A stretch of 64,000 nucleotides of DNA, from contig QCKB01000008.1 in the NCBI GenBank assembly GCA_003215655.1, forward strand, positions 1-64,000. Direction: 5' to 3'. The position numbers were made by a program, and so were the translations under genes. Positions 2,626 to 39,431 of this stretch are shown here, piece by piece (positions within the stretch are counted from its first letter, which is position 1; every line of letters starts with the position of its first letter). Below the pieces are notes generated by a model that ran no database searches, was not told the DNA's origin, and was given only the letters and a program-made list of their open reading frames with translations. The DNA is from Prochlorococcus sp. AG-409-J16 (GTDB taxonomy: Bacteria > Cyanobacteriota > Cyanobacteriia > PCC-6307 > Cyanobiaceae).

Positions 2626-3093
2626 TTGCAGTATTTGACTCTTAGAGAAGACCACAATGGTGAGTCGCGTTTGTGGTGCTCATACAGGAAAGTTTCTGGT
2701 TCTAACAAGTGTGAGCCTTGTTTTTTGATGAGTTCTCCATTGTTGGATTCAGAAGGAGTGAAGGTTGGGTGGAACTTGATCTTCTCCTACCCATTGCTCG
2801 AACTACCTCTAGGAAAGATGGAAATCGGAGAAAATTAAATGGTCACTATGTTGAGGTTTTTCTTAAGACACAGCCTGAGTGGATCAAGCTTAAAAAAAGA
2901 ATATGACCAGCGGGGTGATTGGTTGAGGCCGTATACCTTCAGGGATACAAACAGCGTGCGTTGTCATCGGACCCGATTCGAAACTGCTCAAATTTTCCGA
3001 GCGATGGGTCATGGTTTAGCAGCGTTAAGTAGGGCTTATCGATTAGCAACTGATCAGACCATGTTCGAAGCATTCGATCAGCTTCCTGCCTGA
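2626..3093 (+). pseudogene. Decayed tyrosine-recombinase (phage-type integrase), C-terminal part
   Basis: Read in one frame, the region resembles the catalytic C-terminal half of picocyanobacterial integrases: a WCSYRK segment near the start, then WLRPYTFRDTNSVRCHR, then RAMGHGLAALSRAYR. These fit the RxxH-like Arg/His box, the MGH box and the tail of the tyrosine-recombinase family. A TAA stop at 2836-2838 interrupts the frame, and TAG at 2623-2625 closes it upstream, so the N-terminal half is missing. The two halves (2626-2838 and 2839-3093) share one frame, so a single nonsense change explains the break. It lies near the tmRNA gene, a common integration target. The family call rests on motif memory, not a search. 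Confidence 0.65.
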
Positions 3094-3100
3094 AAGTGAT

Positions 3101-3265
3101 ATGACGATCAGAGTTTTAGAGCTAGCTGAACAGCTCAAAGTTGGCACGGATGACTTGCTAGCTGTTTGCACGCTTCTAGAAATTCCAGCCACTTCAAGGA
3201 TTAGTTGCATTAGCCCTGAGCAAATCAAAAAGCTGAGGAATTACTACCAAGAGAAATCAGAATGA
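3101..3265 (+). CDS. Mini-protein resembling the IF-2 N-terminal domain
   Basis: A 54-residue frame starting 8 bases after the integrase remnant. The pattern (IRVLELAEQLKV, then DDLLAVCTLLEIPATS, then SPEQIKKLRNYY) matches the short helical IF2_N fold at the front of translation initiation factor 2 (V-x-ELA-x-L, then LL-x-x-L-x-LGI, then L-x-x-E-x-x-x-L). It lacks any G domain, so it is not an initiation factor. It may be a small nucleic-acid or ribosome-binding module belonging to the former mobile element, or a leftover fragment. Start ATG has no strong ribosome site. Confidence 0.5.
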   Translation: MTIRVLELAEQLKVGTDDLLAVCTLLEIPATSRISCISPEQIKKLRNYYQEKSE

Positions 3266-3338
3266 AAGTCACATCCAACTTGAAAGCAGCTTGAATTACC
3301 ACCTAATGTAGGCAAATACTAAGTTTTAATGAGTAGCA

Positions 3339-4931
3339 ATGAAAGACTACGATGAGATGAAAAATATAAATTCTAAAAAGGGAGTTGGGAATTGCAAAAA
3401 ATCTGATAAAGATAAACTTATTCAAGATGCTTTCATGCATCATTCACAGGGCAATATCGAGAAAGCTATAGAATGCTACCAATTGTTTATTGATAGCGGT
3501 CATACAGATCCAAAGGTCTTCTCAAATTATGGCAGTATTTGTAAACAACTAGGACAAACTAAATTCGCAATAACACTATATCAGAAATCCATAGACTTAT
3601 ACCCAGATAGTCCAGAAGCCTATGCGAATCTTGGGTTAATACTTAAAGATCAAGGAAACCTTAAAGCAGCATTAATAAATACTAGAAAAGCTATAGAAAT
3701 AAATCCTAATTCTGCCGTATTTTATTATAATTTAGCGAACATATTTAGAGATCTAGGTAACCTGAAAGAGGCTAAATCTAATATTCTAAAAACAATAGAG
3801 TTGAATCCTATTTTTGCAGAAGGATATTTAAATTTAAGTACTATATGTAAAGATCTTGGTGATTTAAATAAAGCTGAGATCTATTCGCGTAAAGCAATTG
3901 AGCTTAATCCTGCTTTTGGAGGAGCATATTCGAACTTGGGAAGCGTATTAAGTGAGCTAGGAAAGTTTGATCAAGCTGAAAAGTACGTTCATAAAGCAAT
4001 TGAGCTTAATCCTAATTCTGCTATTTATCATTACAATTTAGCAAATATATTTCTTTCACAAGGAATGGCTCAAAAAGCAGAAATTTGTAACAAAAGGGCT
4101 TTAGAAATAAATCCTAATTTTGCTGATGCTGCTTGGAATTTATCAGGATGCGTAAAAACAATTCAAGAATCAGAAAAATGGCTTAAAAAATGCTTAGAAA
4201 TAGATAGTAATCATATAGCTGCAAAAGTTACTCTCAGCATATTAAGAGCACATCAATCAGATAACTTGTTATTTAATGAGTTAGCAAATTCGGATTTGCA
4301 ACATCATCCTTTCATACGTTCATTCTTATGGGTTTTATCTCTTAATCATAGACCCAGGTTGGATTTCAATAAATGGGAATTTTTCGATAATCTTATTAAA
4401 GTAAGCGATAAGAATAGACCCTTCTATGAATTTGGAGTTTGGCGCGGAATTTCCTTTAGATACTTACTTAAGGCATTTAATAAAGGCTATGGATTTGATA
4501 CCTTTGATGGATTACCTGAAGACTGGCATAATCAAAAGAAAGGCAGCTATTCAAGTGAGGGAAATCAGCCTGAAATAAACGGAGGCACATTTATAGAAGG
4601 TAAGTTTCAAGATACGCTCCCGAAGTTTTTCTCCAAGGCTCGCCCTACCGCATCAATTATCAATTTCGATGCGGATCTTTACTCTTCAACTATATGTGCC
4701 ATTAATCATGCAAAATCTATAATTGATGAAGATACAATTCTTATATTTGATGAATTCATAATGAATGATTACTGGGAAGAAGATGAATACAAAGCTCTTA
4801 ATGAATTTTGTTTAATGAATGATTTCATCTATAAAGTTATAGCAGTTTGTTATTTCTCGAAACAGGTAGCAGTGAAGTTAATAAAAAAAGGACCTAAACC
4901 AGAGGAAAACAACATAGAGCTAATATTATGA
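3339..4931 (+). CDS. TPR-repeat protein fused to a TylF-like methyltransferase domain
   Basis: A 530-residue two-part protein. Residues about 30-300 are tetratricopeptide repeats of 34 residues (recurring A-x-x-x-Y/S-x-K-A-I-E-L/I-N-P and Y-x-NL-x-x-I-x-x-x-x-G), normally a protein-binding scaffold. Residues about 340-520 resemble macrocin O-methyltransferase (TylF/MycF) type SAM enzymes: FYEFGVWRGISFR is a motif-I equivalent, followed by GFDTFDGLPEDW, the FQDTLP segment and INFDADLYSST. Such fusions are usually linked to glycan or surface-polymer modification in picocyanobacteria; the acceptor is unknown. Two TPR units share an identical 21-base stretch exactly one repeat (102 bases) apart, so duplication may be recent. 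Low GC and position between an integrase relic and tmRNA suggest acquisition. Confidence 0.8.
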   Translation: MKDYDEMKNINSKKGVGNCKKSDKDKLIQDAFMHHSQGNIEKAIECYQLFIDSGHTDPKVFSNYGSICKQLGQTKFAITLYQKSIDLYPDSPEAYANLGLILKDQGNLKAALINTRKAIEINPNSAVFYYNLANIFRDLGNLKEAKSNILKTIELNPIFAEGYLNLSTICKDLGDLNKAEIYSRKAIELNPAFGGAYSNLGSVLSELGKFDQAEKYVHKAIELNPNSAIYHYNLANIFLSQGMAQKAEICNKRALEINPNFADAAWNLSGCVKTIQESEKWLKKCLEIDSNHIAAKVTLSILRAHQSDNLLFNELANSDLQHHPFIRSFLWVLSLNHRPRLDFNKWEFFDNLIKVSDKNRPFYEFGVWRGISFRYLLKAFNKGYGFDTFDGLPEDWHNQKKGSYSSEGNQPEINGGTFIEGKFQDTLPKFFSKARPTASIINFDADLYSSTICAINHAKSIIDEDTILIFDEFIMNDYWEEDEYKALNEFCLMNDFIYKVIAVCYFSKQVAVKLIKKGPKPEENNIELIL

Positions 4932-4945
4932 AAATAGAAATTAAT

Positions 4946-5092
4946 CTAAATAAATATAATAGTTATAAGGAGTATTTTCTCTCCCCCCTGTAGGTCTTTG
5001 ATTACTGGGCTTTGCCGATCAACCAACTCGCAAGCAGCATCCTTTTCAGACTCTCTACAAGCTCCCATAAATGTTTTGAAATCGACGTTCAT
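4946..5092 (-). CDS. Possible small protein downstream of tmRNA
   Basis: A 48-residue frame from an ATG at 5092 (MNVDFKTFMGACRESEKDAA...) with two cysteines and a hydrophobic C-terminal end. The frame can be extended upstream to 5176, but that would run through the tmRNA terminator hairpin, so the internal ATG is the only sensible start. Nothing is recognised. The sequence could equally be tmRNA 3' flanking DNA that happens to be open. Confidence 0.3.
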   Translation of the reverse strand: MNVDFKTFMGACRESEKDAACELVDRQSPVIKDLQGGEKILLITIIFI

Positions 5093-5146
5093 ATCATTGG
5101 GGTTTCTTTTGTAAAAAGCTTCACGGACACTGTCGACTTGACCTTG

Positions 5147-5174
5147 AAATAAAAGAGGGGACCTTCCAGTCCCC
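5147..5174 (-). terminator. Terminator hairpin at the 3' end of the tmRNA gene
   Basis: On the minus strand GGGGAC, a six-base loop TGGAAG, then GTCCCC, followed by TCTTTTATTT. The arms lie at 5169-5174 and 5157-5162. The hairpin follows the coding piece of tmRNA and is the expected end of the primary transcript, although part of it may also belong to the mature RNA. Confidence 0.65.
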
Positions 5175-5450
5175 ATGAGTCATTTGGGTGATAAGGCTGA
5201 CTTCACCCCATCTCCCTTAATAGGGTCAGGCAGCAACTGGGGCTGTCTGACGGGAGAAACGAACGATGTTGTTCGCAGTTACGGATTTGCTCTCACCGAG
5301 CAGGCTTCAGTAACCCTCCTCATGCCTCGTCGAAACCATTACAGCCCCATGTGGGATTAAGTATGTAATGGAGCTGAGCGGAATCGAACCGCTGTCCGTG
5401 ACACTGGTGTGGACCACCTAGCCCATCAAGGATGGGCGTCATTATTCTTG
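5157..5450 (-). ncRNA. ssrA: Transfer-messenger RNA, two-piece (circularly permuted) form
   Basis: tmRNA rescues stalled ribosomes with SmpB. On the minus strand the tRNA-like 3' part comes first: a T-arm AGCGG-TTCGATT-CCGCT, then CAGCTCC plus discriminator A (5376 down to 5369). After a 20-base spacer (5368-5349) comes the mature 5' end GGGGCTG (5348-5342), which pairs base for base with CAGCTCC (one G-U). This inverted order is the hallmark of permuted, processed two-piece tmRNA, known in alphaproteobacteria and some cyanobacteria. The coding piece holds the resume codon GCG and a tag frame. The 5' limit of the acceptor piece (about 5450) is approximate. Confidence 0.93.
5226..5276 (-). other. 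tmRNA proteolysis-tag reading frame
   Basis: Reading from GCG at 5276 down to TGA at 5228-5226 gives ANNIVRFSRQTAPVAA followed by stop. The 16-residue tag ends in AA, as required for ClpXP-type degradation, and closely matches the A-N-x-I-V-x-FSRQ-x-APVAA tags known from cyanobacteria. It confirms the tmRNA call and its strand. Confidence 0.93.
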
Positions 5451-37495: not shown

Positions 37496-37956
37496 TTCAA
37501 ATTGGCGATAAGGCTCCGGATTTTTCTCTCCCTGATGAGGAGGGTAACCCTCTAACACTGTCATCGCTTAGGGGACAACGAGTTGTTATTTACTTTTATC
37601 CGAAAGACAATACCCCTGGCTGTACAAAGGAAGCATGTAATTTCAGAGACCGTTGGTCAGTTTTTCAAGCTCAGGGGATCAAGGTGCTTGGTATTAGTAA
37701 GGACAGTGCGCAATCTCACCAGAAATTCATTAACAAACAACAGCTTCCATTTAGGTTGCTAACTGATCTTGAACCTTGCCCAGTGGCTACTTCGTATGGA
37801 AGCTATGGACTTAAGAAGTTTATGGGTCGAGAATATATGGGAATGATGCGCCATACGTTTGTAGTTGATGCAAATGGAAAATTTGAACTGATCTATCGCA
37901 AGGTTAAGGCTGAAATAATGGCTGATCAGATTATTGGAGATCTTGGCCTTGATTAA
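37489..37956 (+). CDS. Thiol peroxidase Bcp/PrxQ (AhpC-TSA family)
   Basis: 155 residues from ATG at 37489 (MSLQIGDKAPDFSLPDEEG). Peroxidatic cysteine in PKDNTPGCTKEACNF, with a second Cys five residues later, the PrxQ/Bcp arrangement. RHTFVVDANGKF is the usual strand near the end. Reduces hydroperoxides with thioredoxin. An in-frame GTG at 37483 could be used instead. It overlaps the divergent PPTase start at one end and the convergent coaX stop by 26 bases at the other. Confidence 0.93.
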   Translation: MSLQIGDKAPDFSLPDEEGNPLTLSSLRGQRVVIYFYPKDNTPGCTKEACNFRDRWSVFQAQGIKVLGISKDSAQSHQKFINKQQLPFRLLTDLEPCPVATSYGSYGLKKFMGREYMGMMRHTFVVDANGKFELIYRKVKAEIMADQIIGDLGLD

Positions 37957-38644
37957 TCAAGGCTTCTATATCGACCATCCCTTCTAGGGCCAAATTCGGA
38001 TAATGGAACACTTCTAGTCCTCTTTCTTGAAGTGCAGAAAAAACAATAGGTCCATCTCCACCGCAGAGCCAAATAGGTACTGTTGTTTCACGTTGGGCTT
38101 CTATAAGAGCACCTACTAGAGCCATCAGGCTTCCTTTGCGCATTGCCTCATCTGTCTTGAAGGGGAAAGGCTCAACGGGAAGATCGCCTAGGCCAGGATC
38201 ACATAAGTTGTGGCCCCCTTTCGCCATTGCAGATAGCTGTAGGCGCAACCCTGCGATTAATTGTCCCCCAGCGAATTGACCATCACACTTCACTCGAGTC
38301 AGGCTCATAACGGTCCCTACATCTGCAATCAGCATTTCGTTGGATTTGTGTCCATTAATTTGTGCCTTTCTAAATGCACCCCAAGCACCAAAAGCCCGAT
38401 CAATCCCTAGCCAAGGCGGTAAGCACTTCAATGGGACATGCTTGATCTCGAGTCGCTTTATCGAATCAAGCCCAATTTGTTCAGGAATGGGTCCTGCTGC
38501 TGCCCAGGCTGAAAGGGGTGTTTGAAGGGATTTAAGTCTGTTGGGATCTGGGAAGGTGTGGAAGAAGTCCCATCCTTCTGAATTCTGTTCTGCCCAATGC
38601 CAACGAGTATTCCCTATAAGTAAACAACTCCTAACTAAACTCAT
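37931..38644 (-). CDS. coaX: Type III pantothenate kinase
   Basis: 237 residues. First step of CoA synthesis, ATP-dependent phosphorylation of pantothenate. Shows IGNTRWHWAEQ (ASKHA phosphate loop), ADVGTVMSLTRV (Gly-Thr motif) and FAGGQLIAGLRLQLSAMA. The aspartate usual before IGNTR is replaced by Leu (LLIGNTRW), worth noting for catalysis. Overlaps bcp at the 3' end by 26 bases. One base separates it from cysH upstream, so the two are probably cotranscribed. Confidence 0.85.
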   Translation of the reverse strand: MSLVRSCLLIGNTRWHWAEQNSEGWDFFHTFPDPNRLKSLQTPLSAWAAAGPIPEQIGLDSIKRLEIKHVPLKCLPPWLGIDRAFGAWGAFRKAQINGHKSNEMLIADVGTVMSLTRVKCDGQFAGGQLIAGLRLQLSAMAKGGHNLCDPGLGDLPVEPFPFKTDEAMRKGSLMALVGALIEAQRETTVPIWLCGGDGPIVFSALQERGLEVFHYPNLALEGMVDIEALINQGQDLQ

Positions 38645-38645
38645 C

Positions 38646-39431
38646 TTAGATTCCTTCTCCTAGCTGCCCAGGAAGATGAATTCCACATTCTTGTTTTAGC
38701 CCGCCGAAACGGGTATTCCTTCCTGTTGCTTGATCATTGTCTGGAGCGCTTGAATGCCAGTCTCCAACTGTTGAAAAGCCTTTCTCAAAAAGAGGGTGTT
38801 GAGGTAAATTATTTTCCTTCATGTAATAGAAAACATCTTTGGGTGTCCAGTCGAGAATCGGCCTGAGCGATAGGCGCCCACGCATATCATCTAGCAAAGT
38901 CATTTGGCTACGAAGAGTTGTTTGACTACTACGAACACCGCTTGCCCAACATTGAACTTTTAATTCATCTAACTTTTGTTCCAGGGGCTTAACCTTCCTA
39001 AGAAGATGATATTTTTCTAGATCTTTTTCAGAACCTGTTTCCCATAACCTGCCATACAAAGCTTCCATTCTGGCCGGAGATATTTCGCTCTGGGCGACTT
39101 TTATATTTAATCCAAGCTGTTTAGTCAGTTGACTTGCATAGAAATATGTTTCTTTAGGTAGATAGCCAGTGTCAACCCAGATCACAGGGATTTGGGCCCC
39201 ATTTTTCAGACAATGAAGCATATGAAGTAAAACAGCAGATTGAATTCCAAAACTCGTGGTTATTACAAAGTTAGGTCCGAATTCCTCATGTGCCCATGTA
39301 AGCCGATTTTCAGGAGAAAGATTTGAAAGATGACTTCTCGCTGCTTCAATTGGAATGCTTAAAAGGGAATCTGGCGTGACTCCCTCAAGCCGTCCTTCTT
39401 CGGTTTGGTTTTTTGATGTGCCATTAGTCAT
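38646..39431 (-). CDS. cysH: Phosphoadenosine phosphosulfate reductase
   Basis: 261 residues from ATG at 39431 (MTNGTSKNQTEEGR), preceded by AGG; the frame is open to 39485, which would add a hydrophobic stretch not typical of the family. Reduces PAPS to sulfite. Motifs: TTSFGIQSAVLLHML, VIWVDTGYLPKETY, WASGVRSSQTTLRS and the catalytic KQECGIHLPGQ near the C terminus. The CCxxRKVxPL cluster cysteines of APS reductases are absent (here YHLLRKVKPL), so this is the thioredoxin-dependent PAPS type. Divergent from ndbB. Confidence 0.94.
   Translation of the reverse strand: MTNGTSKNQTEEGRLEGVTPDSLLSIPIEAARSHLSNLSPENRLTWAHEEFGPNFVITTSFGIQSAVLLHMLHCLKNGAQIPVIWVDTGYLPKETYFYASQLTKQLGLNIKVAQSEISPARMEALYGRLWETGSEKDLEKYHLLRKVKPLEQKLDELKVQCWASGVRSSQTTLRSQMTLLDDMRGRLSLRPILDWTPKDVFYYMKENNLPQHPLFEKGFSTVGDWHSSAPDNDQATGRNTRFGGLKQECGIHLPGQLGEGI

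Follow-up and report, generated by a model that had tools for sequence, protein, structure and literature searches.

Genes for transfer-messenger RNA (tmRNA) are well-known targets of genomic islands, and the gene is restored upon integration (PMC4383910, PMC11915505). The tycheposons of Prochlorococcus are described, in a second-hand account, as using seven tRNA genes (PMC10872708), and Flamholz et al. 2023 (PMC10187409) reported the Prochlorococcus/Synechococcus integrase family cluster158946 near tRNA-Phe or tRNA-Cys, where a small serine recombinase often accompanies it. Here we analyze the first 64 kb (the window) of contig C8 of a picocyanobacterial genome of 1.84 Mb, in which w2535 to about w5157, beside the tmRNA gene ssrA, is very probably the degraded rest of an integrative element that was once inserted at the 3' end of this permuted tmRNA gene. 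Positions in the window are written as w followed by a number; G numbers denote related genomes of the same family (G000 being the window's own), C numbers contigs, and L numbers fetched loci. The original prediction for this DNA had proposed a relic of an integrative element beside ssrA, and that proposal is supported by integrase homology, by variable gene order, and by attachment (att) repeats in relatives. The target gene, its attachment region, and the integrase remnant lie as follows.

w5135 to w5458, minus strand: ssrA, a circularly permuted two-piece tmRNA gene of the cyanobacterial type, the integration target, apparently intact (ARAGORN; Rfam RF01851, 298 bits), present as predicted.

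w5158 to w5194, minus strand: surviving (proximal) att region at the 3' end of the tmRNA gene, with a terminator hairpin and the conserved core ATGAGTCATTTGGGTGATA (top strand), recognized by the duplication of the same block in integrase-carrying relatives and by the crossover boundary.

w2535 to w3093, plus strand: C-terminal remnant (codons ~214 to 399) of a tmRNA-specific tyrosine recombinase, now a pseudogene, recognized by 94% DNA identity to an intact gene and by its lesions.

Over w2535 to w3146, the window is 94% identical in DNA (579/613) to an intact gene of 399 codons in G006, G011, and G019, which belong to other genera in GTDB, and the same intact gene of 399 amino acids (aa) is present in a fourth relative, G093. 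The RlmL proteins encoded beside tmRNA in the genomes with these 94%-identical intact integrases are only 56 to 66% identical. In the window, the 5' half of the gene (the first ~213 codons) is gone, and the rest carries two in-frame stop codons (CAA to TAA at w2602-2604 and GAG to TAG at w2623-2625), two frameshifts (one base lost near w2814 and one gained near w2890), and a codon for the catalytic histidine (H378; w3025-3027) that is altered at all three positions. The predicted integrase C-terminal remnant is thereby confirmed, with homology clear over w2535 to w3093 and a start at 2535, before the 2626 first proposed; the nonsense codon named with it, between 2626-2838 and 2839-3093, sits between the two frameshifts, out of the original frame, and is not a lesion of that frame. 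The 31 coding differences from the intact gene comprise 12 synonymous and 19 non-synonymous changes (61%, where 78% is expected at random), and some of the divergence may therefore be older than the loss of function.

In an alignment of 18 homologues of the intact gene, R241, K266, R350, and Y382 were invariant and H378 was nearly so; R-K-R-H-Y is the residue set of tyrosine recombinases. Naming the integrase from Pfam or NCBIfam alone was too weak and was replaced by conserved residues, profile, and context, and judged by its residues and context the intact gene is a tyrosine recombinase that is poorly covered by public profiles. We searched 400 genomes of the family, counting homologues of at least 45% identity as close. 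Wherever a close homologue shared a contig with tmRNA (12/12; G093, G230, G089, G135, G098, G249, G229, G060, G245, G137, G146, and G285), it lay 7 to 33 kb from it, and the order in relatives was that of the window, with the integrase gene (int) on the plus strand, cargo, and then tmRNA on the minus strand. Phylogenetically, all 18 tmRNA-linked integrases fall into one clade of 22 members (support 98/98), the rest of which consists of one clearly unlinked copy (G106) and three of unresolved linkage. At two intact loci (L118 and L123), tmRNA was the only tRNA-type gene found. In one genome, two related integrases lie ~5 kb apart (G331:C8:31794-32972 and 37648-38838) and may represent tandem elements at one tmRNA site.

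The ends of the intact elements were mapped by repeats of the tmRNA 3' end. The motif ATGAGTCATTTGGGTGAT at this end occurs once in the window's genome, even allowing two mismatches, and twice, in direct orientation, in relatives with an intact element, where the copies are 8 to 27 kb apart if both are on one contig. Extended alignment gave a direct repeat of the tmRNA 3' end and terminator, 38 to 65 bp long, in 13/13 mapped elements; these repeats mostly end at GGGTGATA, the far copy usually lies 120 to 175 bp upstream of int, and the alignment scores were 45 to 100, against shuffled-control maxima of no more than 31. A duplicated tmRNA 3' segment, which the original prediction had suggested searching for, was thus found flanking the same integrase family in the relatives and not in the window or its genome. 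Variants of the core are common to both copies inside several genomes, and in several genomes the Rfam tmRNA model picks up the displaced tmRNA fragments unaided, which makes them convenient for marking occupied sites. Such displaced 3' fragments are located at the following positions.

G183, C17:81337-81432: displaced tmRNA 3' fragment.

G176, C1:384865-384960: displaced tmRNA 3' fragment.

G060, C1:158396-158488: displaced tmRNA 3' fragment.

G229, C3:27-163: displaced tmRNA 3' fragment.

An occupied and an empty site could be compared within one genus. In G049, another gene stands directly against the tmRNA terminator; in G089, 14.5 kb of element separates tmRNA from the homologue of that gene, which stands beyond the far repeat. 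The tmRNA gene is full-length both in the window and in occupied relatives, showing that the target is restored. The hairpin-plus-core was also considered as a general terminator repeat, a candidate that was rejected, as it occurs once in the window's own genome, at tmRNA, and is duplicated chiefly in genomes that have an element. Ordinary one-piece tmRNA genes are used for integration at their tRNA-like 3' end. In the permuted gene, the tRNA-like segment sits at the opposite transcript end, and by the Rfam consensus the att segment instead comprises the tail, the terminator, and, from the last helix of the tag-coding piece, the 3' arm.

An intact cousin of the lost element, located as follows, has spread horizontally and is found in five genera.

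G093, C1:99408-118383 (L116, L117): 19-kb tmRNA-integrated element with phosphate/arsenate-type genes; parts in G006, G011, G019, and G020.

This element is complete on one contig in G093, split over two contigs each in G006 and G011, seen without its integrase end in G020, and seen by both ends in G019. Its long shared blocks are 96.7 to 99.3% identical in DNA (93.7% in one block that runs into host DNA), and the RlmL proteins beside it are only 55 to 70% identical among the five genera. On the tmRNA side, in comparison with G093, the element DNA is 100% identical and the terminator and core are 97 to 99% identical; beyond the core, identity in the tmRNA body falls to the level of unrelated genomes, and that in the gap between tmRNA and rlmL to ~50%. 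On the far side, the core block is 71 to 81% identical and everything outside it 42 to 58%. These steps in identity at the core on both sides indicate that the element supplies a terminator of its own, displacing that of the host, with a crossover near GGGTGATA. The identical cassettes might have come from contamination in single-cell genomes, an explanation that was rejected because the element, a host-type tmRNA body, and a host-specific rlmL share one contig (G093, G006, and G020) and because of the identity step at the core. By Pfam, the cargo includes an ArsR regulator, major facilitator superfamily (MFS) and chromate transporters, a PstS-like binding protein, a PhoB-like response regulator, a Crp-type regulator, and an AAA_25 ATPase; by reading of the sequences, it also appears to include a GAPDH-like protein and a porin. 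On contig C11 of the window's own genome, a similar phosphate/arsenate set is coupled to a different integrase, a second, intact one of 406 aa (L136:3434-4654) beside ArsR, GAPDH-like, MFS, and porin genes. The window's terminator (w5158-5192) is unlike that of the 19-kb element and resembles the displaced host copy of G093; the terminator of the lost element may accordingly have been of a different variant.

A tyrosine recombinase encoded at the far end of the element, from a clade nearly invisible to Pfam, would recombine attP with attB within a shared core ending in GGGTGATA, which comprises the 3' arm of the final helix in the tag-coding piece, the tail, and the transcription terminator; the crossover itself would be expected in GAGTCATTTGGGTGATA. 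Upon insertion, the element would donate its own tmRNA tail and terminator, leaving tmRNA whole, and the host's copy of both would be displaced to the far end, usually 120 to 175 bp upstream of int. In the window's lineage, a deletion then very probably took the displaced copy together with the 5' half of int and so fixed the element in place, the stops, frameshifts, and loss of the catalytic histidine coming after or with that deletion. We infer that the intact integrase is catalytically active and that the elements have a way of moving between cells, and a separate helix-turn-helix (HTH) protein of ~80 aa in the intact elements, with weak excisionase matches, is a putative excisionase.

The features at the left edge of the relic and between the remnant and tmRNA are as follows.

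w2396 to w2534, strand not assigned: deletion junction; the relic's left edge falls in this interval.

w3339 to w4931, plus strand: intact TPR-methyltransferase gene of low G+C content (GC), 530 aa (Pfam TPR repeats and Methyltransf_24).

w4964 to w5038, strand not assigned: 75-bp segment, probably a second scrap of element near tmRNA, matching an interior part of the 19-kb element (G093/G006/G020; blastn E=5.7e-11) at 79% identity.

The DNA of w2258 to w2395 matches chromosomal sequence that in G006 lies to the left of the distal att, and element homology starts at w2535; the left edge therefore lies within w2396-2534, and the far att and the 5' half of int have been deleted. The C-terminal domain of the TPR-methyltransferase occurs in only 9 of 201 family genomes, which fits an accessory gene, and the gene is probably either cargo or later-acquired island DNA; as original cargo, it would have arrived with the element. 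The original prediction of a low-GC TPR-methyltransferase gene was right about the gene and about its GC (32.3%, with 40.7% for the whole window), and not about low GC as a mark of that gene, since w1-2500 has only 33.8% and low GC is thus typical of the entire left side.

Several observations weigh against a relic of an inserted element. The link of the integrase to known recombinases is weak by profile: Pfam Phage_integrase is matched in 3 of the 18 homologues, the PHROG_1 integrase profile matches the intact gene weakly (E=2e-4), and the best PDB relative is a XerC-like tyrosine recombinase chain at E=0.016. No second copy of the tmRNA end is present in the window or elsewhere in its genome, so the case for insertion at this particular tmRNA comes from the relatives; the expected position of the far fragment lies inside the deletion, and the window is therefore called a relic and not an intact member. 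The run of DNA homology with the 19-kb element ends at w3146, so the window's element differed downstream, and the mapped intact elements hold no counterpart of the TPR-methyltransferase, a distant TPR gene of G019 being outside the element.

The remnant is followed directly by a small open reading frame (ORF), as follows.

w3101 to w3265, plus strand: IF2_N-like mini-ORF, 54 aa (Pfam PF04760, E=1e-5, just above the cut-off).

The predicted IF2_N-like mini-protein is borne out by this match and by its membership in a conserved small-protein family, found in 99 of 300 picocyanobacterial genomes at E<=0.01 (the weakest match being infB itself), so the mini-ORF is not a chance frame. Members of this family (window 3101-3265; L145-L164) are ~54 aa long, have a near-invariant core IPATS..SC, occur in up to several copies per genome, and often stand behind integrases or integrase remnants. 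The end of homology to the 19-kb element (w3146) falls inside the ORF. The mini-ORF is distinct from IF2: the likeness is a match to the IF2 N-terminal domain (PF04760), and the window ORF is a free-standing small protein of 54 aa, not a multi-domain GTPase of ~1000 aa, with infB of the same genomes being a separate gene of ~1100 aa that matches at only ~35%. A PDB profile search with the family gave nothing significant. IF2_N is a small helical domain in a fold group shared with excisionases, and a role of the mini-ORF in directing integration is possible on such grounds; it is not favored, because intact elements have the separate HTH protein.

Other explanations of the locus can be weighed on these data. 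The mini-ORF could be the element's recombination directionality factor, co-produced with the integrase: in several genomes its start overlaps the integrase stop or lies 8 to 12 nt from it, and it directly follows not only this integrase but also a second one of only ~30% identity, including on the window genome's own C11, where the ORF is truncated and sits at the stop codon of the 406-aa integrase. However, the ORF is cut after 15 codons in the 19-kb element, which looks recently mobile, many copies stand alone without any integrase, and the HTH protein is a separate candidate for this role; we therefore regard a directionality factor as rather unlikely. A prophage or phage satellite, including a helper-packaged one, would be a different source of the remnant from a cargo-carrying integrative element, and intact relatives do carry HTH proteins that match phage families weakly, as well as an AAA_25/primase-helicase-like gene. 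Yet no capsid or tail protein was recognized among the proteins of the 19-kb element that were read or scanned, and neither 50,697 phage records nor 2.9 million viral contigs yielded any relatives, which makes a phage origin quite improbable, although a helper-packaged satellite could still be the source.

Homologous recombination might also have carried the integrase scrap into this hypervariable island, or the scrap might be debris of some other locus, no element ever having integrated at the window's tmRNA. Consistent with this, the window has no distal att, relatives have a general island on the left of tmRNA, and mosaicism is real, as the IF2_N ORF behind two very different integrases shows. 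But the integrase group is tmRNA-linked in every same-contig case and in the orientation of the window, and the second scrap lies between the remnant and tmRNA, so that we hold a debris origin to be very unlikely. Finally, an ordinary conserved chromosome with a chance integrase-like frame might be suspected from the silence of Pfam on both the remnant and the intact reference gene; this has next to no probability and is refuted by the 94% identity over 613 bp to an open 399-aa gene and by the variable gene order.

The flanks of tmRNA differ in character. To its right is a conserved block beginning with an rlmL-like methyltransferase gene, whose nearest named relatives are from Prochlorococcus and marine Synechococcus. 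To its left, gene content and order vary between the genomes of relatives; the comparison across relatives proposed with the original prediction therefore bore out a variable interval. Within this flank, short stretches at w842-1000 and w2258-2395 match sequence to the left of the element in G006 and to the left of tmRNA in other genomes and are read as conserved small genes within an otherwise variable flank. An intact class II aldolase gene, fuculose-phosphate aldolase-like (w1199-1864, minus strand), has no match among the fetched tmRNA loci of relatives.

Prochlorococcus is streamlined and has few recognizable prophages, and the exchange of nutrient genes in this group is a live question. 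On balance, we think it somewhat probable that the relic and its relatives belong to a dedicated picocyanobacterial element lineage, with an integrase adapted to the permuted-tmRNA 3' end and terminator, that this lineage is an as yet unnamed vehicle which recently carried a phosphate/arsenate set, with hardly any change, among at least five genera, and that the window is an extinct copy. The relic itself is modest, and the interest lies in its family, with its permuted-gene att site and cross-genus cargo element: starting from the relic, intact elements were reached whose ends and crossover are mapped and whose cargo crossed genus borders at ~97 to 99% DNA identity. Since Pfam mostly fails to recognize the integrase, elements of this kind would escape island finders built on Pfam. 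In the open literature searched, which did not include the tycheposon paper of Hackl et al. 2023 or Williams 2002, tmRNA was not mentioned as an att site of picocyanobacteria, and the novelty of tmRNA-targeting elements in this group is provisional.

Compared with described systems, the locus combines familiar and distinct traits. Like the tycheposons as described at second hand (PMC10872708), these are picocyanobacterial cargo elements with a tyrosine recombinase, an RNA-gene site, and nutrient cargo; by that same description they are set apart by their target, which is tmRNA and not one of the seven tRNA genes. With cluster158946 (PMC10187409), they share a divergent Prochlorococcus/Synechococcus tyrosine integrase and variable islands beside an RNA gene, and they differ by description in standing beside tmRNA instead of tRNA-Phe or tRNA-Cys. 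Islander-type islands in tRNA and tmRNA genes (PMC4383910) likewise have a tyrosine integrase, a target restored by the element, a displaced fragment that marks the far end, and a preference for tmRNA. In contrast to those islands, the displaced fragment is gone in the window, and the tmRNA here is permuted, with a gene 3' end formed by the tag-coding piece and terminator and not by the tRNA-like acceptor/T arm; gene permutation thus changes which RNA segment serves as the attachment site.

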